This document shows positions 14 through 19,671 of a stretch of DNA of 44,550 bases, in pieces. The notes below the pieces were generated by a model, which was given only the letters and a program-made list of their open reading frames with translations, was not told the DNA's origin and did not search any database. Source of the DNA: an uncultured Mucilaginibacter sp. (GTDB taxonomy: Bacteria; Bacteroidota; Bacteroidia; Sphingobacteriales; Sphingobacteriaceae); contig NZ_CALMAT010000005.1 of NCBI RefSeq assembly GCF_937859865.1, positions 5,627 through 50,176 on the forward strand, in the 5' to 3' direction. A program made the position numbers and the translations under genes. Position 1 is the first letter of the stretch, and every line of letters starts with the position of its first letter.

Positions 14-3000
14 TCAAACAACCATATTTACAATGCGGCCTTTTACGACGATCACTTTTTTAGGTTTTTGCCCGGCCAGGTATTTTTGTACGCTTTCATC
101 GGCCAGAACCATTTCTTCCACTTCTTTCTGGTCTAAACTAAGCGGAATATTCAAGTTAGTTTTTGTTTTTCCGTTGATAGAAATAGGGTACGAAAAAGCA
201 TCTTCTACCAAATATTCAGGATTAAATTTCGGATAAGTTGCATAAGATAAAGTTCCGGCCTGGTTGCCCAACAGCTTCCATAATTCTTCGCAAATGTGCG
301 GTGCATAAGGCGATAAAATAATTACCATATCCTGCAGAATGCTTCTTTTAGCACACTTGAGTTCGGTTAGTTCATTCACTGCGATCATAAAGCTGGAAAC
401 GGAAGTATTGAAGGAGAAACGCTCTACATCGTCTTCCACTTTTTTAATGATTTTATGTAAGGCTTTCAGTTCGGCTTTTGTTGGTGCTTCGTTTATCACC
501 CTAAAATTGAAAGCATCATCATGAAACAATTTCCAAAACTTCCGCAGAAATTTAAAAACGCCTTCAATGCCGTTGGTGTTCCAGGGTTTGGATTGTTCCA
601 GCGGACCTAAAAACATTTCGTACATCCGCAATGTATCCGCGCCATAACGTTCAATCATTTCATCAGGATTGACTACGTTAAACTTGGATTTGGACATTTT
701 TTCTACTTCTGGTTTAGTATAGAAAAATTTATCTTCACCATCATTATTATCAAATGGATGAAACAGGCCTTTGTGCCAACATCCAGCTTCGCAAAGAAAA
801 ATGGCACTTTTGTATTCTGAGCCAGAATTATCCTCGATAAATTTTTGAATATTTAATTGATTGGTTTTCGTATCTACACAATTTATATTTACATTGATTT
901 CATAACTATAATACAAATTATTAAAACCATCTTCCTCTCGTTCACTTTCCTTTTTATCTAAGTATATCCTTACATTATTACTGATAACTAATTTTGCGCC
1001 TTCTTTAGCCTCAATTTTCACACCACGGATATCAAAATAATGCCATTTGTTTATAGTAACATGAGTTTTTTCCGAAACTCCTTGAATCATTCCCTGATTA
1101 ATCAATTTTTTAAAAGGCTCTTCGGCTTCCACTAAACCCAAATCTTTCAAAAACTTGTTCCAGAAACGGCTGTATAATAAATGTCCCGTTGCATGTTCAC
1201 TTCCACCGATGTACAAATCCACATCTTTCCAGTATTCTATCGCTTCTTTTGAGGCAAACTCTTGGTCATTCTGCGAATCCATATAACGATACCAGTACCA
1301 GCTGCTTCCCGCCCAACCTGGCATGGTGCTTAATTCGTAAGGGTAAGAATTAACATTACCTTCTTTAAAACTCCCCTCTTGAATAGTTCCATCTTCATTA
1401 AACCGTGCAAGACGTATTTCAAAATCTGTTCTTTCAACATATTTCCAATTCTCAGCCCTGGCTAATGGAGGTTCACCACTTTCAGTTGGCAAATATTTAT
1501 TAACTGCAGGTAAAATTAGCGGTAGTCTATTTTTGCTAACTAATTGCGGCAAACCATCTTTAAAATAAACCGGAACAGGTTCGCCCCAGTAACGCTGCCG
1601 GCCAAAAATAGCATCGCGCATCCGAAAGTTAACTTTAGCTTTTCCAGCACCGAGTTCTTCCAGTTTGGCAATCACGGCGGCAGTTGCTTCCTTGTAAGTC
1701 ATGCCGTTAATGAAATCGGAATTGATGTAACGGCCTTCTTTGGTTGCATCTGCTTCTTTTAGCACCTCTTTTTGGGTATCTAAAATGGCAACAATCGGCA
1801 AATTAAAATGCGTTGCAAAACGATGATCGCGCGCATCGCCGGAAGGAACGCCCATCACCGCGCCGGTTCCGTATCCGGCCAAAACATAATCGGCAATCCA
1901 AACCGGAATTTTCTCATCGTTCAGCGGGTTAATTACATAACTGCGTGTAAAAGCGCCCGAAACAGTTTTGGTATTGGCCATGCGGTCCAGCTCCGATTTC
2001 TTTTTCGCCTGATCAATGTAAGCATCAATATCGGCCTGCTGGTCTGGCGTGGTTAAATCTTTCACCAGTTCATGTTCTGGTGCCAAAACCACGAAAGTTA
2101 CGCCAAAAATCGTATCAACGCGTGTGGTAAAAACAGCAATTTTTGCCGGTTCCAGCGGACTATCCTGCGATAATTTAAAGTTGCCCACAACCGGTTCCAC
2201 TTCAAATTCGACCATTGCCCCAACACTTTTGCCAATCCAATTGCGCTGCATTTCTTTCAGCGGTTCCGGCCAGTCAATCGTATCCAAACCTTTCAGCAAA
2301 CGTTCGGCGTAAGCGGTGATGCGCATGCTCCACTGCATCATTTTTTTCTGTTCCACAGGATAACCGCCGCGTTCAGAAAAACCGTCTTTCACTTCATCAT
2401 TGGCCAAAACGGTCCCTAATGCTGCGCACCAGTTTACGGTGCTTTCGCGGAGATAAGTCAAACGGTATTTCAGTAGTTCTTCCTGTTTTTCGATTTCGGA
2501 AAAGACAGCCCATTCTTCTGCAGAAAAACTGCGCACATCTTCATCCGATACTGCTTTTACCGATGTATTTCCTTCAGCCTCAAACTTTTGAATTAAGGTA
2601 GAAATGGATTCTGCTTTATCCGTTTCCAGGTTGTACCAGGAATTGAACAGTTGCATAAAAATCCACTGCGTCCATTTATAATAATCCGGCGAGCTGGTTC
2701 GTACTTCGCGGCTCCAATCAAAAGAAAAACCAATTTGGTCTAACTGACGACGATATGTGGCAATATTTTGTTCGGTGGTGATGGCCGGATGTTGTCCGGT
2801 TTGTATCGCATATTGTTCTGCCGGCAAACCGAAAGAATCATAACCCATCGGATGCAGCACGTTAAAACCTTTTAAGCGTTTGTATCGCGCAAAAATATCT
2901 GAAGCGATATAACCCAGCGGATGGCCAACATGCAAACCCGCGCCCGAAGGATACGGAAACATGTCCATCACATAATATTTAGGTTTTGGAGAGTTATTAT

Positions 3001-3073
3001 GAGCTTCAAAAGTATTTTTTTCGGCCCAAAACTTTTGCCATTCGCTTTCTATTTTTTTAAACTGATAATCCAT
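14..3073 (-). CDS. leuS: Leucyl-tRNA synthetase
   Basis: Class I aminoacyl-tRNA synthetase that charges tRNA-Leu in the cytoplasm. The frame is complete at 1019 residues, starting MDYQFKKIE. The HIGH motif is HVGH at residues 48-51 and the KMSKS motif is at 792-796. The editing (CP1) domain lies between about 240 and 440, and the C-terminal anticodon-binding region has the usual ELTELK and SPYAPHICEELW segments. An insert around residues 150-205 looks normal for Bacteroidota LeuRS. From memory the protein is longer than relatives (about 930-950): there is extra sequence around 555-590 and in the stretch between MIQGVSEK and KMSKS (about 660-790), which is also AT-rich. The frame stays open, so I read it as functional. 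Two copies of the dispersed 12-base motif lie inside the gene. It is transcribed away from the toxin-like pair to its right. Confidence 0.97.
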   Translation of the reverse strand: MDYQFKKIESEWQKFWAEKNTFEAHNNSPKPKYYVMDMFPYPSGAGLHVGHPLGYIASDIFARYKRLKGFNVLHPMGYDSFGLPAEQYAIQTGQHPAITTEQNIATYRRQLDQIGFSFDWSREVRTSSPDYYKWTQWIFMQLFNSWYNLETDKAESISTLIQKFEAEGNTSVKAVSDEDVRSFSAEEWAVFSEIEKQEELLKYRLTYLRESTVNWCAALGTVLANDEVKDGFSERGGYPVEQKKMMQWSMRITAYAERLLKGLDTIDWPEPLKEMQRNWIGKSVGAMVEFEVEPVVGNFKLSQDSPLEPAKIAVFTTRVDTIFGVTFVVLAPEHELVKDLTTPDQQADIDAYIDQAKKKSELDRMANTKTVSGAFTRSYVINPLNDEKIPVWIADYVLAGYGTGAVMGVPSGDARDHRFATHFNLPIVAILDTQKEVLKEADATKEGRYINSDFINGMTYKEATAAVIAKLEELGAGKAKVNFRMRDAIFGRQRYWGEPVPVYFKDGLPQLVSKNRLPLILPAVNKYLPTESGEPPLARAENWKYVERTDFEIRLARFNEDGTIQEGSFKEGNVNSYPYELSTMPGWAGSSWYWYRYMDSQNDQEFASKEAIEYWKDVDLYIGGSEHATGHLLYSRFWNKFLKDLGLVEAEEPFKKLINQGMIQGVSEKTHVTINKWHYFDIRGVKIEAKEGAKLVISNNVRIYLDKKESEREEDGFNNLYYSYEINVNINCVDTKTNQLNIQKFIEDNSGSEYKSAIFLCEAGCWHKGLFHPFDNNDGEDKFFYTKPEVEKMSKSKFNVVNPDEMIERYGADTLRMYEMFLGPLEQSKPWNTNGIEGVFKFLRKFWKLFHDDAFNFRVINEAPTKAELKALHKIIKKVEDDVERFSFNTSVSSFMIAVNELTELKCAKRSILQDMVIILSPYAPHICEELWKLLGNQAGTLSYATYPKFNPEYLVEDAFSYPISINGKTKTNLNIPLSLDQKEVEEMVLADESVQKYLAGQKPKKVIVVKGRIVNMVV
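339..350 (-). repeat. Dispersed 12-mer (GAAG type) inside leuS
   Basis: On the minus strand it reads TAAAAGAAGCAT, an exact match. It is read in leuS as Ala-Lys-Arg-Ser-Ile, using AGA AGC codons. Confidence 0.7.
1751..1761 (-). repeat. Near-copy of the dispersed 12-mer inside leuS
   Basis: Minus strand TAAAAGAAGCA, an 11 of 12 match. Its 5' neighbour GGTGC resembles the GGTGG/GGTGC seen before other copies. It is read as Leu-Lys-Glu-Ala, so a chance match is possible. Confidence 0.4.
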
Positions 3074-3766: not shown

Positions 3767-3923
3767 TAAGAAGCTGTTTAAATTCATACACCAAAAATGC
3801 CCATGCTTCTTTTACCCTATAAAAATTGGTGTATGCATCAACCCAAACCAATCAAAAAATAGGTACTTCCTATTTTTTAGGTGATAAAAGAAGCATAAAA
3901 AATAAATTCCTAAACAGCTTCTA
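3767..3923. repeat. MITE-like inverted-repeat element, copy E1
   Basis: A gene-free stretch (3756-4055) filled by repeats. The ends are TAAGAAGCTGTTTA (3767-3780) and TAAACAGCTTCTA (3911-3923), inverted copies of each other. Inside are two inverted 12-mer copies with their AT tracts: minus-strand copy at 3803-3814 followed by CCCTATAAAAATTGGTGT, and plus-strand copy at 3885-3896 preceded by TTTTTTAGGTGA. The whole 157 bases can fold into one long imperfect hairpin. It has no coding capacity. Confidence 0.8.
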
Positions 3924-8685: not shown

Positions 8686-9691
8686 GCAAGTTTACCACAA
8701 CATCCAGGAATTTAAGCCGCTGCAAAACGCTGTTGTTACCATCGGCACTTTTGATGGCGTACATCTTGGCCATCGTAAAATTATTGCCCGATTGCAGGAA
8801 GTGGCCAGGCAGATAGGCGGCGAAACCGTTATTTTAACATTTTTTCCGCACCCGCGGATGATTTTGCATCCGGAAGACCAGAACCTGAAACTGATTACTA
8901 CCATCGAGGAAAAAGCGGAACTGTTGGCGGGTTTGGGCATTGACCATCTCATTATCACGCCTTTTTCCCGCGATTTCTCCAATCTTTCTGCCGAAGAATA
9001 TATCCGGGAAATATTGGTAAACCGCATCGGCACCAAAAAAATTGTGATTGGCTACGACCACCGTTTTGGCAAAGACCGCAGCGGCGGATTGGCCGAACTG
9101 CTGCAGTTTGCACCGATTTATAATTACCAGGTCGAAGAAATTACAGAACAGGACGTAAACGAAGTTGCGGTAAGTTCCAGCCGGATCCGTAAAGCCGTAT
9201 TAAATGGCGAAGTTGGTTTGGCCAACCAATATCTGGGCTATGCTTTTTTTATCACCGGAAAAGTAATCCGCGGCGATCAAATCGGCCGCACTTTGGGTTA
9301 TCCAACCGCCAATTTGTTCATCGAAGAAAGCTATAAATTAATTCCTGCCGATGGGATTTATGCGGTAGAAATAAGAGCGGTGAGCGAAGAGCGAGGAGCG
9401 GAAAATCAAAAAGGAGACAGGACGCTTCCTAATCCTAATTCCCCGCTCCCCGCTCCTCACACCTCACACCTAAAAGGCATGGCTTACATCGGTCATCGCC
9501 CAACCATCAACGGCATGACGCGGAATATTGAAGTGAACATTTTTGATTTTAACCAGGATATTTACAACCAAACGTTGCAGATGAGTTTCCACAGCTTCAT
9601 CCGCCACGACATTAAATTTGCTGGCCTGGAAGAACTGACCGAACAATTAGGCCGCGATAAAGAAAGCGTGCTGGCCTACTTTTCTTCCTGA
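8684..9691 (+). CDS. ribF: Bifunctional riboflavin kinase / FAD synthetase
   Basis: Phosphorylates riboflavin to FMN and adenylates FMN to FAD. It has 335 residues. The N-terminal FMN adenylyltransferase domain shows VTIGTFDGVHLGHRKI (nucleotidyltransferase HxGH-type motif), FFPHPR and VAVSSSRIRKAV. The C-terminal kinase domain shows ITGKVIRGDQIGRTLGYPTAN and GMAYIGHRPT. Between DGIYAVEI and LKGMAYIG there is an extra low-complexity stretch of about 33 residues (231-263) encoded by a partly palindromic GC-rich insert; the frame is preserved. The ATG overlaps a copy of the dispersed 12-mer. Confidence 0.95.
   Translation: MQVYHNIQEFKPLQNAVVTIGTFDGVHLGHRKIIARLQEVARQIGGETVILTFFPHPRMILHPEDQNLKLITTIEEKAELLAGLGIDHLIITPFSRDFSNLSAEEYIREILVNRIGTKKIVIGYDHRFGKDRSGGLAELLQFAPIYNYQVEEITEQDVNEVAVSSSRIRKAVLNGEVGLANQYLGYAFFITGKVIRGDQIGRTLGYPTANLFIEESYKLIPADGIYAVEIRAVSEERGAENQKGDRTLPNPNSPLPAPHTSHLKGMAYIGHRPTINGMTRNIEVNIFDFNQDIYNQTLQMSFHSFIRHDIKFAGLEELTEQLGRDKESVLAYFSS
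9374..9472. repeat. In-frame partly palindromic insertion within ribF
   Basis: 99 bases (33 codons). The left arm is rich in GAGCGAGGAGCGG and the right arm in CCCCGCTCCTCACACC, which are imperfect inverted copies separated by about 40 bases. It encodes Ser/Glu/Arg then Pro/Asn/His-rich sequence unlike the surrounding kinase domain. It resembles short GAGCGAGGAGCG-type interspersed repeats of Bacteroidota intergenic DNA, and behaves like a protein-tolerated palindromic element. Confidence 0.6.
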
Positions 9692-12499: not shown

Positions 12500-15400
12500 T
12501 TTTTGATGATCTTAATACGTGTTTCAGTATGGTCTAACACAAGTTTTAGTACGTAATTTCCCGGTAAAAGTCCGGGTACATCAAAAGCACAATTTCCCTG
12601 GTTTACACCTGTTTTGCCACGGTAAACCATTTTGCCCTGCATGTTATAAACTTCGGCTGTTGCCGCTACAGATTTGTTGTTACCGATATTTAAAGATAAA
12701 GTTTGTTCAACCGGGTTCGGATAAACTACAATTCCGGCTGGCAGTTCAATCGTTTTAGCATAAACCCCTTGGCAAATACTGCTTGTGCTTACCTGTAAAC
12801 TATTTTTTCCGGCCGCAAGCGGAAGGGAAACAGAACTTTGCGTAGTGGTGTAAGTTGCACCGTTCAGGCTGATGTTGTAAGAACTGGCGCCTGCCAAACT
12901 CAAACTTAATGTACTTGATGTTGGGTTGATGACAGCGGAAACCGCAAGGTCTTGAGGTTGAGTTACGGTAACATTAAAACACTGGCTATAATCAGGATAA
13001 CCCGCAACCGTGATGCAAACCGGGTAAATACCGGCAGGCAGGTTTTTAACGGACAGTTGATTGGTAAAAGGATAAGCAGTGCTTGTACCTGCCACCACAA
13101 TGGTTGCTGTATAGTTTTGGCTGCTGGCGGCCGTAATATTGATTTCCCCGTTTTTGCTGTTTTTGCAGCTTTCGCCGGTTGCACTAACTGTAAAATTCTT
13201 TGCCGGAAGCGAAAAAACAATTGCTAAAGTCTGGCTAACGGATTCGGCAGCAAGGTAATTGGTATTTCCGCTTTGTGTGGCCGTTATAGTTGCGGTTCCG
13301 GGCGCAACCAAGTGTAATTGTCCGTTTACGATTGTTACAACTGCCGGGTTGCTGCTGGCAAAACTAACCGGCAAACCTGAAGATGCTGTTGCAGCAGGCG
13401 TAAAATCGGGATTGCCAAAAGCCTTGGCGGCCAAAGTGCCAAACGTAATGGTTTGGGCAGCTTGTGTTACCGTTAAAGTTCCGGGAATATAGGTAATGGC
13501 GTAGTTATCACTTGCAGCACCGCTTATGGCAATTGGGTAAGTACCGGCAGCAGATGTGGAGGTTGCGGTCGTACTTGCCTTTGGTAAAGCGTTTAAATTT
13601 GTTTGGGTTTCAGCATTCACAAAACCGCTGTATGTAATGGTCAAGGCCGGGTTAGCCGATCCGAAAGCGCGTGTCTGGTCATCTGCTTTAATGGTCAATG
13701 CTGCTTTTAGCACGGTTAAATTTTGTGTCGCATTGGTTGCTGCAAAGTTTGCATTACCAGCTTGCGAAGCGGTGATGGTGGTTGTACCGGCCATCAGTAC
13801 ATGCACCTTACCATCAGTAGTTACCGTTGCAACAGCCGTATTGCTGCTGGCATAAGTAAATAACAGGCCGGAAGACGAGGTTGCATTCAAATTAAAATCG
13901 GCATCGCCATAATAAGTATTAGTTGGAAGCGAAGCAAAAGTGATCGTCTGGCTTGCTTGTTTTACCATTAAAGTTTGGGCAACCGGAGTAGCTGCGTTGT
14001 AATTGTTGTCTCCGACTTGTTGTGCGGTTATGGTTACCGTTCCTGCGGAAAGAAGATGAACATTTCCGTTAGCATCAACACTTGCAACCGAAGGATCACT
14101 GCTGGAATAAGCAACGGCAAGGCCGGAAGAAGCTGTAGCACCGAGCGTAAAATCGGTATCGCCATAAGTTTTATCCGGAATCGAAGCAAAAGTGATAACT
14201 TGAGAAGCTTTCTTTATGGTTAAAGTTCCGGGTAAGTAAGTAAAGGTATAATTGTTGCCTGCCGCGCCAGTAGCGGTTATCGGATAATCGCCGGCAGGCG
14301 AAGTTGCAGTAGCTGTGGTAGCGGCAGTTGGCAAGGCGGTTAAAGCAGTTTCCTTGGTATCACCATTTACAAAACCACTGTAAGTAAGGGTTAACTCAGG
14401 ATTAGCTTCATTATACGTTTTGCTTTTGTTTTCGGCGGTAATCGTCAATACTGTTTTTACCACTATAAAATTCTGACTAACTGGTGTAGCTGCATTGTGG
14501 GTTGAATCTGCTGCTTGGTTTGCCGTAATGGTTGCTGTTCCGGCACCTACAATGTGTATTTTACCATCCACAATGGTTGCAACGGCAGGGCTACTGCTGG
14601 TATAAGTAAGCGCAGCAATAGCGTTGTTGGTGGAAGTTGCACTGGGCGCGAAATCTGCATCACCATAAGTTTTTGTGGGAAACGCAGCAAAGGTGATGGT
14701 TTGGGCAGCCTGGGCACGGTTTACGGTTAAAGTATAAGTTTGGGTGGTGGTGCTATCTTGGGCGGTAACAACAGTTTTAATGGTATTGCTGCCGATATTT
14801 AGAGGGATCGCAGCAGAGGCACTTCCTGCTATTACGGCTACACCATTGACTTTTACGCTTGCGGTTGCATCTGCCAATGTTGGGGTTAAGGTGATGCTGG
14901 TAGTAGAATTAGAAACCGAAGCCGTATAAGCAATTGTGCCGGCAGCAAACGCAGGAGTTAAGCTGCCCGAACTTAAAGCAAGGTTGGAAAGCTGGGCATT
15001 GGTTGATACCGGAAGATCATAATATTTAACATAAACCCCATCGGAGGAATAAGCCAGGTACAGTTTATTGTTATTAACCAAAAGACTGGTAGAATTGACT
15101 GCACCAGCACTAACAAAAGGTTGGCCAACTGTAATCCAGTTACTACCATCAAACCTGCTAACGGTAGCCCTACTACCGTATGCTGCATAAGGCGTATCTC
15201 CTACCAAAGCAAATGAAACAGGCGCCGTTGAAACAAACCCAGAGGTACTGACGGTTACCCATTTAATGCCGTCAAATTTCTGAATGGTTTCTACCCCATC
15301 AAGATAGTTAGTATAAGATACGTAAGGCGTGTTACCATTGAAAACAATAGAGGGATACACGATTCGATCTGATGAAAACCTTGCACCTCCTACCGTTACC

Positions 15401-18400
15401 CAATTTGTACCATCAAATTTTTTGACTGTTGCCCTGGCCTGACTGGCAAAATTGGCACTGGGAGGCCCATCCGAGTAAATTACATAAGGTGTGTCGCCAT
15501 TAAAAGCAAGCGAAGGATAATTACTGTTAAATGCAATACTGGAGCCGACGGTAATCCAATCTGTGCCATTAAACTTTTGCACAACAATTGTCCCTCCGTT
15601 TACAATACCTGTTTGATAAACAACATAAGGTACACCATTATTAATTTTTATGGAGGGATAAGTAACCGTAGTTTGTTTGAAGCCTGATGCACCTACAATT
15701 ACCCAATTGCTGCCATCAAATTTCATTACTGCACCCGTACCAAAATTGCCTCCTAAATCCCCGTAAAAAATATAAGGTGTCCCATTGCTTACGGTGAGAG
15801 AAACCTGATCTACGTAACGTGTAGTAAAACCTTCCATCCCAACTGCTACCCAATTACTGCCATCAAATTTCTTCACTGTAACTTTACCGCCATTGTTATT
15901 ATCAGAATAAGCAATATAAGCCGTAATACCACTAAAAGCTAAGGAAGGTGAACCAGTCGGGCCTCCGGAGATACCTGAACCTACCGTAACCCAACTACTA
16001 CCGTCAAATTTCTTTACGATTGCTTTGCTACTATTGCCATCATCCCTGTAAATTAAATATGGTATATTGCCGCTAAACGCAAGAGATGTGTAAGTTGCAA
16101 CGCCTGTTGAAAAACTCACTGTGCCTACCGTTACCCAACTATTGCCATCAAACTTCTTAACAGTAGCTTTACCTGCGTCTCCGTCTTGATAAGCGATGTA
16201 TGGTGTATTTCCACTAAAAGTAAGGGAAGCATAATTGGCTGGCCCCGTGGAAAAGCCTAAAGCGCCTACTGTTGCCCAATTGCTACCATTAAGCTTTTTT
16301 AAAGTTGCTTTACGGCCATTGCCACCATCAGCGTAAGCAACATACGCAGTACCACTGTTAAAAGCAAGTGAGAGGTATAGTGCCGCGCCTGTTGTAAACC
16401 CGGGTGTTCCTACTGTTGTCCAACTACTACCGTTGAAATTTTTTAAAGTTGCTTTGCCATTATAATCGTTATCGCCATAAACCACATAGGGTATAGTTCC
16501 ATCAAACGCAAGTGAAAGAGAGGGGTCGAAATTACTTGAAAAAAAGCCCACAGTACCTAACGTAGCCCAATTTGTGCCATCAAATTTCATAACTGTGGCT
16601 CTTTTCGTATTGTTTACAAGCTCAGCATAAGATATATATGGCATATTTCCGTTAAAAGTAAGTGTGGGATTAGTAATTTGACCATCTGAAAACCCTGCTG
16701 TACCTACTGTTGTCCAGTTACTCCCATCAAACATCATAACGGTAATTTTTTGGCTATTGGAAAAATCCCTATAAGCAACATAGGGTATACTTCCATTTAG
16801 GGCAAGCGATAGGTAATTGGCTGTACCTGCCGAAAAACCTGCCGTACCTACAGTTACCCAATTACTACCTTGAAATTTCTTAACCGTTACCTTACCGCCG
16901 TTACCTACATCAGAAAAAGCGATATATGGTATACCGCTTGGGTCTGTTACAATATTTGTAAAATTAGCGATCCCAGCAGAAAGTCCGGGAAGGTCATCCG
17001 GCCCCAAAGGTTTCCAAGTTAGTACCTGCCCTGGGTTTTGTGGTTGCCCTACCGTTAGGGTTTGTACCACATCAGGTGCTGCTAAATAATCGGTGCTTCC
17101 TACCTGCGAAGCCGTAATATTTGCTGTACCGGCCGAAACAAGATGAATTAAACCATTGGCCGTAACAATAGCCACAGCCGGATTGCTGGTGGTGTAAGAT
17201 ATAGGAAGCCCCGAAGAAGCAGTTGCACCGGGCACAAAATCCGCATCGCCATAAGTTTTGGCAGGAAGCGCAGCAAAGGTGATGGTTTGGGCAGCTTGGG
17301 CGCGGTTTACGGTTAGCGTATAAGTTTGGGTGGTGATGCCGTCCTGTGCGGTAACAACCGTGGCAATGGTATTATTGCCAACAATAAGCGGAGTGGCAGC
17401 CGATGCAATTCCTGATGCTACGGCTACGCCGTTTACGGTTACGCTTGCGGTTGCATCTGCCAATGTTGGTGTTAGGGTGATGCTACTGGTAGTATTAGGG
17501 ACCGAAGCCGTATAAGAACTTATACCCGCAGCAAACGCAGGGGCTAAAGTGCCCAAACTTAAAGCAAGATTGGAAAGCTGGGCATTACTTGATGCAGGGT
17601 TAGCAAAAGATTTAACATAGGCACCGTCTAGATCATAAGCCAAATAAACTTTATTATTATTTACCAATAATGAGGTACTGTTTATCCCACTTATCCCGCC
17701 AGCAGAAATGCCAGGCGTTCCTACAGTTATCCAATTATTGCCATCAAATTGTTTAACCGTCATTTTATTGCCAAAAGAAGCATCAGCATAACCAACATAA
17801 GGTGTGTTGCCGTTAAAAGCAAACGTTACATAACTGGCCCCGCTTGCTGATAAGCCTGCAGCACCTACATTTACCCAATTACTGCCATCGAATTTTTTGA
17901 CCGTCAATTTGTTACTTGCGTTTGGGTCATTATAAGCAGCATAAAAAGTAGTACCATCAAAAGCAAGCGGAGGATAAGCGCCTGCCGAAAAGTTAGGTGT
18001 CCCTACCAATACCCAACTTGTTCCGTTAAACTTCATCACGGTTAATTTCCCACCATTGCTGTTATCGGCATAAGCCACATAAGGAACTGTACTATTAATC
18101 CCGAATGCAAGCGAGTTGACTGCACCTGCCGAAAATTCTGCTGCACCTACTGTTTGCCAACTGCTGCCATCAAATTTTTTGACCGTGACTTTGCCGGAAT
18201 TACCATAATCTCCATAAGCTACATAAGGGGTAGTGCCGTTAAAAGCAAGCGAAATGTAAGGAGCTGCACCGGATGAAAAGCCGGCTACACCTACAGCAAC
18301 CCAATTACTGCCGTCAAACTTCATCACGGTAGCTTTACTACTATTTGCGTTATCACTGTATGATAAGTATGGCGTACCTCCATTAAAAACCAATGAATTT

Positions 18401-19671
18401 TTGAGAGTTTGGCCTGTTGAAAACCCTGCTGCACCTACTGTTGTCCAATTGCCCCCGTCATATTTTTTAACGGTTGCTTTATTGCTGTTGCTGCCATCAG
18501 AATAAGCCAGGTAGGGTACATCGTTATTAAATGCAAGGGAAGTAAAAGTAGCAGCCCCGATAGAAATACTTCCCGTCGAACCGGCCACAACCCAGTTGCT
18601 GCCATCAAACAACATGGCCGTACCTTTTTTAGTATCGGCATTTTTGAAGGTTACAAAAGGTATGCTTCCAGCCAAAGCAATGGAGGTATTTTCTGCATAA
18701 CCTGCCGAAAAGCCTTCTACACCTACCGTTACCCAGCTTTGTCCGTTATACTTTTTTACGGTTGCTTTGCCGTTTAAGCCGCCATCTTCGTAAGCTACAT
18801 AAGGCGTACCGTTTGAGGCAATCGAGATATAAGCGGCAGTATTGGTCGAAACATTTGTATTGCCTACTTGCACCCAGTTACTGCCATCAAATCTTTTGAC
18901 AGAGAGTTTATAATTATTGTTAGCATCGGTGTAAGCCACAAAAGGTATATTACCATAAAAAACGAAAGCAAAAAAACTAACCTGCCCTGCTAAAGTTGAA
19001 GGTGTACCCACAGTTACCCAACTGCTGCCCACAAACTTTTTCACGGTAGCTTTAGGAGCAGCACTGGTTCCGTAATCTAAATAAGCGACGTAAGGAATAT
19101 TATTACTATCAAACGACATGACCGTACTTGATGCTGATGTTGAAAAACCTGTTGCACCTACCATCACCCAATTGTTGCCATCAAACCGTTGCACTGTTCC
19201 TCCGTAAGCAACATAAGGTGTATTACCATTAAAAGAAATCGAAATATTACCTGCACTACCCGTAGAAAAACCTGCCGCACCTACCGTTACCCAGCTATTG
19301 CCATCAAATTTCATTACCGTAGCTTTACCACTGTTGGCGGCATCAGAAAATGCTACATAAGGTGTAACTCCGTTGATAGCCAAAGAAATTAAACCGGTAG
19401 TACCGCCCGAAAAGCCTGCTGCCCCTACCATTATCCAGTTACTGCCGTCAAACTTTTTGACCGTGAGTTTGCTAGAGTTATTGGCATCCGAAGAAACAAC
19501 ATAAGGAACACCATCCGGAGAGGTAACAATATTATTGTACTTGATAAGGCCCGAAAAAGCTTCGTTGTTATCATCCGGCCCAACCGGCTTCCAGGTTTGT
19601 GCCTGGCCGGTAAACCTTCCAAGCAACAAAAACAATAAAACAACAATGAGTTTAGGTAAAGTTTTATCCAT
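12496..19671 (-). CDS. Giant T9SS-secreted repeat protein with two propeller-like blocks
   Basis: 2391 residues from MDKTLPKLIVVLL (19671); the frame is open 23 codons further upstream. Order: signal peptide (1-24); repeat block 1 (about 28-685) of 13 units of about 45-50 residues with the core KKFDGSNWVTVGAAGFS and a following SLAFNGTTPYVAYxD; a cadherin-like beta-sandwich (SNAQLSNLALS, TPTLADATASV); an Ig-like domain (TFAALPAKTYGDADF); block 2 (about 885-1545), again 13 units; a second cadherin-like domain; then alternating Ig-like and MBG-like domains (NKSKTYNEANPELTLTYSGF, DDQTRAFGSANPALTITYSG); a Cys-containing domain; and a C-terminal type A T9SS sorting domain (VVYPNPVEQTLSLNIGN to the end). 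Probably exported and surface-bound; the ligand is unknown. It is almost free of the dispersed 12-mer (one near miss at 17772). Confidence 0.9.
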   Translation of the reverse strand: MDKTLPKLIVVLLFLLLGRFTGQAQTWKPVGPDDNNEAFSGLIKYNNIVTSPDGVPYVVSSDANNSSKLTVKKFDGSNWIMVGAAGFSGGTTGLISLAINGVTPYVAFSDAANSGKATVMKFDGNSWVTVGAAGFSTGSAGNISISFNGNTPYVAYGGTVQRFDGNNWVMVGATGFSTSASSTVMSFDSNNIPYVAYLDYGTSAAPKATVKKFVGSSWVTVGTPSTLAGQVSFFAFVFYGNIPFVAYTDANNNYKLSVKRFDGSNWVQVGNTNVSTNTAAYISIASNGTPYVAYEDGGLNGKATVKKYNGQSWVTVGVEGFSAGYAENTSIALAGSIPFVTFKNADTKKGTAMLFDGSNWVVAGSTGSISIGAATFTSLAFNNDVPYLAYSDGSNSNKATVKKYDGGNWTTVGAAGFSTGQTLKNSLVFNGGTPYLSYSDNANSSKATVMKFDGSNWVAVGVAGFSSGAAPYISLAFNGTTPYVAYGDYGNSGKVTVKKFDGSSWQTVGAAEFSAGAVNSLAFGINSTVPYVAYADNSNGGKLTVMKFNGTSWVLVGTPNFSAGAYPPLAFDGTTFYAAYNDPNASNKLTVKKFDGSNWVNVGAAGLSASGASYVTFAFNGNTPYVGYADASFGNKMTVKQFDGNNWITVGTPGISAGGISGINSTSLLVNNNKVYLAYDLDGAYVKSFANPASSNAQLSNLALSLGTLAPAFAAGISSYTASVPNTTSSITLTPTLADATASVTVNGVAVASGIASAATPLIVGNNTIATVVTAQDGITTQTYTLTVNRAQAAQTITFAALPAKTYGDADFVPGATASSGLPISYTTSNPAVAIVTANGLIHLVSAGTANITASQVGSTDYLAAPDVVQTLTVGQPQNPGQVLTWKPLGPDDLPGLSAGIANFTNIVTDPSGIPYIAFSDVGNGGKVTVKKFQGSNWVTVGTAGFSAGTANYLSLALNGSIPYVAYRDFSNSQKITVMMFDGSNWTTVGTAGFSDGQITNPTLTFNGNMPYISYAELVNNTKRATVMKFDGTNWATLGTVGFFSSNFDPSLSLAFDGTIPYVVYGDNDYNGKATLKNFNGSSWTTVGTPGFTTGAALYLSLAFNSGTAYVAYADGGNGRKATLKKLNGSNWATVGALGFSTGPANYASLTFSGNTPYIAYQDGDAGKATVKKFDGNSWVTVGTVSFSTGVATYTSLAFSGNIPYLIYRDDGNSSKAIVKKFDGSSWVTVGSGISGGPTGSPSLAFSGITAYIAYSDNNNGGKVTVKKFDGSNWVAVGMEGFTTRYVDQVSLTVSNGTPYIFYGDLGGNFGTGAVMKFDGSNWVIVGASGFKQTTVTYPSIKINNGVPYVVYQTGIVNGGTIVVQKFNGTDWITVGSSIAFNSNYPSLAFNGDTPYVIYSDGPPSANFASQARATVKKFDGTNWVTVGGARFSSDRIVYPSIVFNGNTPYVSYTNYLDGVETIQKFDGIKWVTVSTSGFVSTAPVSFALVGDTPYAAYGSRATVSRFDGSNWITVGQPFVSAGAVNSTSLLVNNNKLYLAYSSDGVYVKYYDLPVSTNAQLSNLALSSGSLTPAFAAGTIAYTASVSNSTTSITLTPTLADATASVKVNGVAVIAGSASAAIPLNIGSNTIKTVVTAQDSTTTQTYTLTVNRAQAAQTITFAAFPTKTYGDADFAPSATSTNNAIAALTYTSSSPAVATIVDGKIHIVGAGTATITANQAADSTHNAATPVSQNFIVVKTVLTITAENKSKTYNEANPELTLTYSGFVNGDTKETALTALPTAATTATATSPAGDYPITATGAAGNNYTFTYLPGTLTIKKASQVITFASIPDKTYGDTDFTLGATASSGLAVAYSSSDPSVASVDANGNVHLLSAGTVTITAQQVGDNNYNAATPVAQTLMVKQASQTITFASLPTNTYYGDADFNLNATSSSGLLFTYASSNTAVATVTTDGKVHVLMAGTTTITASQAGNANFAATNATQNLTVLKAALTIKADDQTRAFGSANPALTITYSGFVNAETQTNLNALPKASTTATSTSAAGTYPIAISGAASDNYAITYIPGTLTVTQAAQTITFGTLAAKAFGNPDFTPAATASSGLPVSFASSNPAVVTIVNGQLHLVAPGTATITATQSGNTNYLAAESVSQTLAIVFSLPAKNFTVSATGESCKNSKNGEINITAASSQNYTATIVVAGTSTAYPFTNQLSVKNLPAGIYPVCITVAGYPDYSQCFNVTVTQPQDLAVSAVINPTSSTLSLSLAGASSYNISLNGATYTTTQSSVSLPLAAGKNSLQVSTSSICQGVYAKTIELPAGIVVYPNPVEQTLSLNIGNNKSVAATAEVYNMQGKMVYRGKTGVNQGNCAFDVPGLLPGNYVLKLVLDHTETRIKIIKK

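Follow-up and report, generated by a model that had tools for sequence, protein, structure and literature searches.

The window analysed here, a stretch of 44,550 nucleotides from an uncultured Mucilaginibacter sp., carries ribF, whose product scored above the cut-off of NCBIfam NF004160 and TIGR00083. A preliminary description had placed a 99-base palindromic element in frame within this gene; RibF residues 231–263 correspond exactly to that element (Table 1), and its arms, GAGCGAGGAGCGG (9389–9401) and CCGCTCCTCAC (9450–9460), were confirmed. The arms are short arrays of degenerate heptamers, (GAGCGRN)n on the left and their inverse on the right, where the match of a lag-7 scan covered 9439–9473. 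The element was present in RibF of all three genomes of the genus examined, the window's own (G000) and two others (G001 and G002). An assembly error was rejected because of its presence at the same ribF site in three genomes. A known RNA at this site was also rejected (Rfam matches at gathering score in the window, 0; tRNAs in the window, 0).

Table 1. Features of ribF and its inserted element, and the leuS gene of the same window (positions in the window)
Feature	Position	Strand	Remarks
ribF, bifunctional riboflavin kinase/FAD synthetase, 335 aa	8684–9691	+	PF06574 (FAD_syn), PF01687 (Flavokinase)
Heptamer-armed palindromic element, in frame, RibF residues 231–263	9374–9472	+	
Left arm, GAGCGGT GAGCGAA GAGCGAG GAGCGG, 27 nt, (GAGCGRN)n	9375–9401	+	contains a 14-nt direct repeat
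Spacer, 40 nt	9402–9441	none	
Right arm, CCCGCTC CCCGCTC CTCACAC CTCACAC, inverted heptamers, 28 nt	9442–9469	-	
leuS, span of two matches	68–3073	-	G000:C5:5694-8699; loop span 42 aa, no lag-7 signal

The element forms a stem-loop with terminal inverted repeats, as Rickettsia palindromic elements (RPEs) do. Its minimum free energy was -40.8 kcal/mol compared with a mean of -21.3 for shuffled sequences (z = -6.12; none of 200 dinucleotide shuffles was as good), and its palindrome score of 13 compares with an average of 6.0 after shuffling (none of 100 shuffles was as high). The lag-7 self-identity of 0.59 was reached by none of 500 codon shuffles. The equivalent ribF segments of G001 and G002 gave z = -2.29 (3 of 200 shuffles) and z = -2.82 (1 of 200), respectively; stems fold in all three genomes, but the pairings differ. 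The preliminary description had proposed modelling whether the segment loops out of the beta-barrel. An AlphaFold2 model was built from a 56-sequence alignment (mean pLDDT 90.4, pTM 0.87), in which the insert, predicted without secondary structure, forms a disordered hairpin tip between strands 224–232 and 263–274, with pLDDT 54–65 in blocks across residues 231–260. The reading frame is intact and the fold around the loop is predicted with confidence. The low pLDDT of the insert may come in part from most of the aligned relatives lacking the loop. In the alignment with the solved RibF structure 4uzf, the inserted segment contained a 13-residue gap.

Loop lengths were measured in 74 RibF sequences including that of the window: the best 30 of 58 matching in a sample of 60 relatives, 40 from the 195 matching in a family sample of 201 genomes, and four named loci. 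Because most of the 40 extra loci were picked for the length of their match, the frequency of long loops in this set does not estimate that in the population. It had been supposed that the motifs DGIYAV and GMAYIG are adjacent in relatives; this did not hold, since a loop of 10–12 aa separates them in many, and the net gain over the nearest genus sampled is consequently ~26 aa. The loop is 10–12 aa long in many genera and 23–30 aa in others, with a maximum of 61 aa. Among the first 30 loci (L003–L032, own included) it measured at least 27 aa in nine and 23–26 aa in seven, some of them without a heptamer signal. A named-locus survey gave 50 measurements from 80 loci (4 had no ORF and 26 were unmatched by the loop pattern), and the shortest form was found in 44 of these 50 across the phylum; the two long ones were named Pedobacter. 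In two unmatched loci (L118 and L121) the loop was by eye longer than usual. The named relatives closest by RibF identity were Mucilaginibacter and Pedobacter, and we take the family to be Sphingobacteriaceae-like. In a tree of 70 RibF proteins with the loop excluded, the genus of the window grouped with the nearest genus sampled, g14 (SH-aLRT 95), all three rows of which have 10-aa loops. On this tree, the heptamer label requires at least 14 changes and the long/short label at least nine, with thresholds of our own. The alignment proposed in the preliminary description shows a gain in length over the nearest genus sampled, but other genera have 23–30 aa at this position.

A possibility raised at the outset was an ordinary variable loop. 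In its fuller form, this explanation holds that a low-complexity hairpin tip drifts freely in the family and that its repeats reflect only local slippage in unconstrained DNA. The loop is indeed variable in the family, ranging from 10 to 61 aa, and loops of 25–30 aa without lag-7 signal occur in several genera (L006, L009, L011, L013 and L015). Codon comparison shows little protein-level constraint on the insert: among 34–35 codons compared, nonsynonymous and synonymous changes numbered 16 and 0 (G000–G001), 14 and 4 (G000–G002) and 17 and 5 (G001–G002), compared with 26 and 82, 25 and 106, and 23 and 109 in 300 flank codons of the same pairs. Within the genus of the window the loop drifts in place (DNA identity 72–79% versus 83–86% in the flanks). 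Against such free drift stand the 10-aa loops of the nearest genus sampled and the heptamer period of the long loops. The mean lag-7 identity was 0.445 in 42 RibF loops of at least 27 aa (L107, a duplicate of L200, was left out) versus 0.244 in 211 controls, which were same-length segments upstream in the same ribF genes. In the same loops, the mean was 0.405 at lag 14 and 0.25–0.31 at lags 4, 5, 8, 10, 11 and 13. Lag 7 was the strongest of the seven lags tested in 31 of the 42, and it reached p<0.01 in 28 and missed it in 14. Direct 7-nt units therefore exceed other unit lengths in RibF loops, as they do in heptanucleotide tandem repeats. Palindromy is not general, since it reached p<0.05 in just 13 of the 42. 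By eye the units differ by species: AAAGTTG, GAAGTCC, GAGTTTA, CTCAAAT, ACCCTAC or GAGCG. Local slippage also leaves unexplained the large loop differences between near-identical ribF genes. In G172 and G183, whose flanks are 99.3% identical in protein and 90.2% in DNA, the loops agreed in 62 of 100 aligned columns; in L007 and L196 (98.0% and 95.6%) they agreed in 64 of 113, the replaced loops keeping a common RNKNQ core. No pair of an empty and a filled site within one species was found among the genomes sampled.

The preliminary description had also anticipated the same arms elsewhere in the genome, and heptamer arms do recur there and in other core genes. Matches to GAGCGRNGAGCG numbered 23, 26 and 24 in G000, G001 and G002, respectively, versus 0–3 in each of 14 other genomes (counts include overlapping units; reversed-pattern control, 0–2). 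This weakens the variable-loop explanation further, as does the recurrence of a genus-specific ribF heptamer in ispG, valS, leuS, prmC and intergenic DNA; nor does local slippage explain arms that are inverted copies of each other. We consider that explanation unlikely. Other units were distributed differently among the same 17 genomes. AAAGTTGAAAGTTGA was matched only in four of the five g13 genomes and in G179 (reversed, this pattern still matches the same series of heptamers and cannot serve as a control), and CTCAAATCTCAAATC in 10, including some without it in RibF (one control match overall). CTCAAAT heptamers were present also in G029, with a RibF loop of 10 aa, and in G184, which belongs to g14. 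The donor stock is not always visible, since both AAAGTTG matches of G093 lie within RibF itself and AGCTGATAGCTGATAG, found in three of the 17 genomes, occurs in G000 only within ispG.

GAGCG elements were found in frame in conserved genes and between genes, as RPEs are. The three genomes together had 58 distinct GAGCG clusters, 33 of which lay in crude ORFs of at least 110 aa, several of these ORFs being putative, and the family is therefore not mainly non-coding as heptanucleotide repeats are; the distinct intergenic clusters of G000 numbered 12, with the overlapping L098 and L099 counted once. Several elements were shared, at orthologous positions, by two or all three of these genomes. When 425 kb were scanned strictly at lag 7, four clusters emerged, three of them in ORFs (one ribF, two ispG). 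At other lags the same scan returned none at 4, 5, 8, 10 and 13, six at 14, three at 9, two at 11, and one each at 6, 12 and 15; it misses degenerate elements and drew on contigs already met in matches, and its counts do not represent a genome-wide density. GAGCG matches in AlaS and in what we take to be RecF and a CrtI-like gene look native in length. In the alaS genes of the window's genome (L085) and of G001 (L239), the heptamer-like DNA (encoding RSEEERGAVSG) stands by eye in a stretch of apparently native length, as though an ordinary stretch had come by drift to resemble the heptamer pattern, or had been its source.

Other repeats were noted in the same DNA. The motif TAAAAGAAGYAT, in most cases with a degenerate ACACYAWTTTTANGYGR before it, occurred 309 times in the 425-kb sample, about once per 1.4 kb (230 intergenic, 79 in crude ORFs). 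Between tandem genes it had no orientation bias (58 sense, 61 antisense), and it sometimes formed facing pairs; in the window it lies near 3803, 3976, 8644, 11650, 20943, 21015, 23431, 25293, 32963, 44095, 44222 and 44382. A dispersed repeat around GGGCGTGCCC and GGTCGGGCTTTCCGCTGCAAGTCCTCGC adjoins several intergenic heptamer elements in G000, G001 and G002 (L097, L098, L238, L241, L244, L248 and L255). A long array of degenerate direct repeats, many at a spacing of 141–147 nt, occupies 13300–19600 of the window and is perhaps a repeat-rich surface protein.

The core enzymes with GAGCG heptamers were identified by NCBIfam matches above cut-off (RibF, IspG, ValS, PrmC, ArgC and AlaS in G000; LeuS and AroA in G001). 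All three genomes have the heptamers in frame in RibF, IspG site 1, ValS and PrmC; G001 and G002 have them also in IspG site 2, LeuS and AroA, and G000 also in ArgC. Relative to solved structures, ValS gains ~31 aa before VATTRPET, PrmC ~17 aa, LeuS of G001 ~14 aa and ArgC ~6 aa; AroA gains none. IspG site 2 measures 24–25 aa in 12 of 30 loci (L279 is incomplete there), 45 aa with a lag-7 identity of 0.42 in G022, and 56 aa throughout the window's genus (three genomes), where the units are GAGCG heptamers in G001 and G002 and AGCTGAT heptamers in G000. At IspG site 1 the lag-7 identity was 0.41 in G010 and 0.49 and 0.43 in G037 and G041 (other families), and weak in the genus of the window (0.26–0.37). 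The LeuS loop was 29 aa in 6 of 19 genomes (the incomplete span of G010 excluded), and longer spans with lag-7 identities of 0.37–0.49 were found in seven, G001 and G002 among them; the lag-7 measure is weak on short spans, as G022 LeuS reached 0.40 without an insert. Separately, a whole DUF559 endonuclease-like domain (PF04480) was found in frame in two leuS genes, L306 of G172 (117.5 bits) and L313 of G166 (109.3 bits), at the loop before the editing domain and with palindrome remnants of the LTPTLSEGEG / LSKGEGQGEA type on its flanks. L311 of G010, which ends at a contig edge, looks by eye like a case of this kind, and G078 leuS has the palindrome alone, without DUF559.

Copies of an RPE share a consensus along the length of the unit. 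Searching the window's genome with the whole RibF element returned one other match, a weak one (73% over 66 nt) carried by the arms, and no full-length consensus was seen; an RPE unit measures 105–146 bp (PMC2229807, as excerpted). The likeness to RPEs drawn in the preliminary description therefore stands as far as an in-frame palindromic repeat in the loop of a core enzyme is concerned, and fails as to a family of the Rickettsia type. According to the excerpted accounts, RPEs are short repeats that fold into stem-loops; they lie between genes and also, in frame, within conserved proteins, there as a rule in segments without structure, and the palindromes of Wolbachia and Methanocaldococcus resemble the present elements in the same way (PMC2229807, PMC2996958). 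In contrast, the elements here are built of heptamers, show no full-length consensus, differ in unit sequence by lineage, hit the same loops repeatedly, and reside in a host outside the groups named for RPEs in those excerpts. The analogy is right in kind and wrong in family, because there is no full-length consensus and the loop itself is variable, and the best reading is a heptamer-built variant of protein-coding palindromes that is not filed as an RPE.

The same observations bear on a classical non-autonomous transposable element, RPE- or MITE-like and mobilised by a transposase. A stem-loop of ~100 bp with intergenic and in-frame copies, together with a short loop in the nearest genus sampled, would suit such an element; the want of a full-length consensus, the orthologous positions of several elements and the lack of any target duplication seen by eye speak against it, and we regard it as improbable. 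REP sequences moved by a resident RAYT (Y1 transposase) were rejected as very improbable: the window's genome does have one Y1_Tnp match (L055), but its flanks carry, by eye, another palindrome, AACGGGTTTAAACCCGTT, and no GAGCG heptamers, and GAGCG elements lie also inside genes, unlike extragenic REPs.

Other described systems share single traits with the elements. Tandem heptanucleotide repeats (GGGAATC in Xanthomonas, GGGGAYT in Nostoc, TAACTGA in Beggiatoaceae, Cyanobacteria and five Bacteroidetes) likewise have a dispersed, lineage-specific 7-nt unit, but in the accounts as excerpted they are direct arrays over-represented in non-coding DNA (PMC4692102, PMC4679880), whereas here inverted pairs of short degenerate arrays lie inside core coding genes. 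The coding palindromes of Nematomorpha mitochondria are similarly kept within protein genes, with gains and losses, but are perfect repeats with arms as long as 142 bp, located in conserved regions; the excerpted account makes no mention of a 7-nt period (PMC6649704). In titles and abstract beginnings of the open-licence literature, none of the matches listed reported in-frame palindromes or heptamers in Bacteroidota enzymes.

We conclude, with a probability of about 0.7, that the RibF segment belongs to a family of short stem-loops, specific to the lineage, whose arms are degenerate tandem heptamers; it occupies the permissive tip of a beta-hairpin of the kinase domain and would have been shaped by slippage and template switching. 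Most likely the peptide forms a tolerated, predicted-disordered loop without a function of its own. The arms would gain and lose units through 7-nt slippage, and switching of templates across the stem during replication would keep them complementary and could invert the spacer. Elements may be seeded or swapped by ectopic copying that starts from heptamer microhomology. Since a single 7-nt step shifts the frame, only combinations totalling a multiple of three would survive in ribF, and selection would keep copies free of stops in the frame used and of such a length. One orthologous intergenic pair, L100 (G000) and L225 (G001), is instructive: the surrounding DNA is colinear (79% over 2,088 columns), the stem-loop matches in reverse complement (89.7% over 78), and the spacer scored 24 in inverted and 13 in direct orientation (1000 shuffles reached at most 8). 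Spacer inversion was seen in this one pair and in none of the ribF elements. Template switching between inverted repeats is described as leaving inverted spacers and homogenised arms, also in coding DNA (PMC8604942, as excerpted), and polymerase slippage has been suggested to be biased towards 7 nt (Mrazek 2007, cited in the excerpted PMC4679880). Taking the inverted pair together with these two reports, we read the element as plausibly maintained by both processes. Quasipalindrome template switching, as that excerpt describes it, acts within an inverted repeat and alone does not explain the dispersal of a genus-specific heptamer.

A broader proposal, which we put forward only as a rather doubtful one, is that many Bacteroidota have an unrecognised process, perhaps with its own 7-nt-register machinery, by which heptamer palindromes peculiar to each lineage are inserted into exposed loops of essential enzymes, and exchanged there, at a higher rate than the neighbouring DNA changes. 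If true, protein innovation would be concentrated at these loops, which could also take up larger inserts, as with the DUF559 domain in LeuS. The insert also carries a warning: with 14–17 nonsynonymous and 0–5 synonymous changed codons, such a loop can look like fast adaptive evolution when processes at the DNA level may suffice. In the sources as excerpted, the described hosts of protein-coding palindromes are a small number of intracellular bacteria, one archaeon and certain mitochondria (PMC6649704, PMC2996958, PMC2229807). The family of Bacteroidota considered here has coding palindromes repeatedly at the same loops, with a repeat family that differs between close species, and offers natural replicates for asking by what route repeats get into proteins, what kinds of loop accept them, and whether new peptide sequence arises from 7-nt slippage and template switching.
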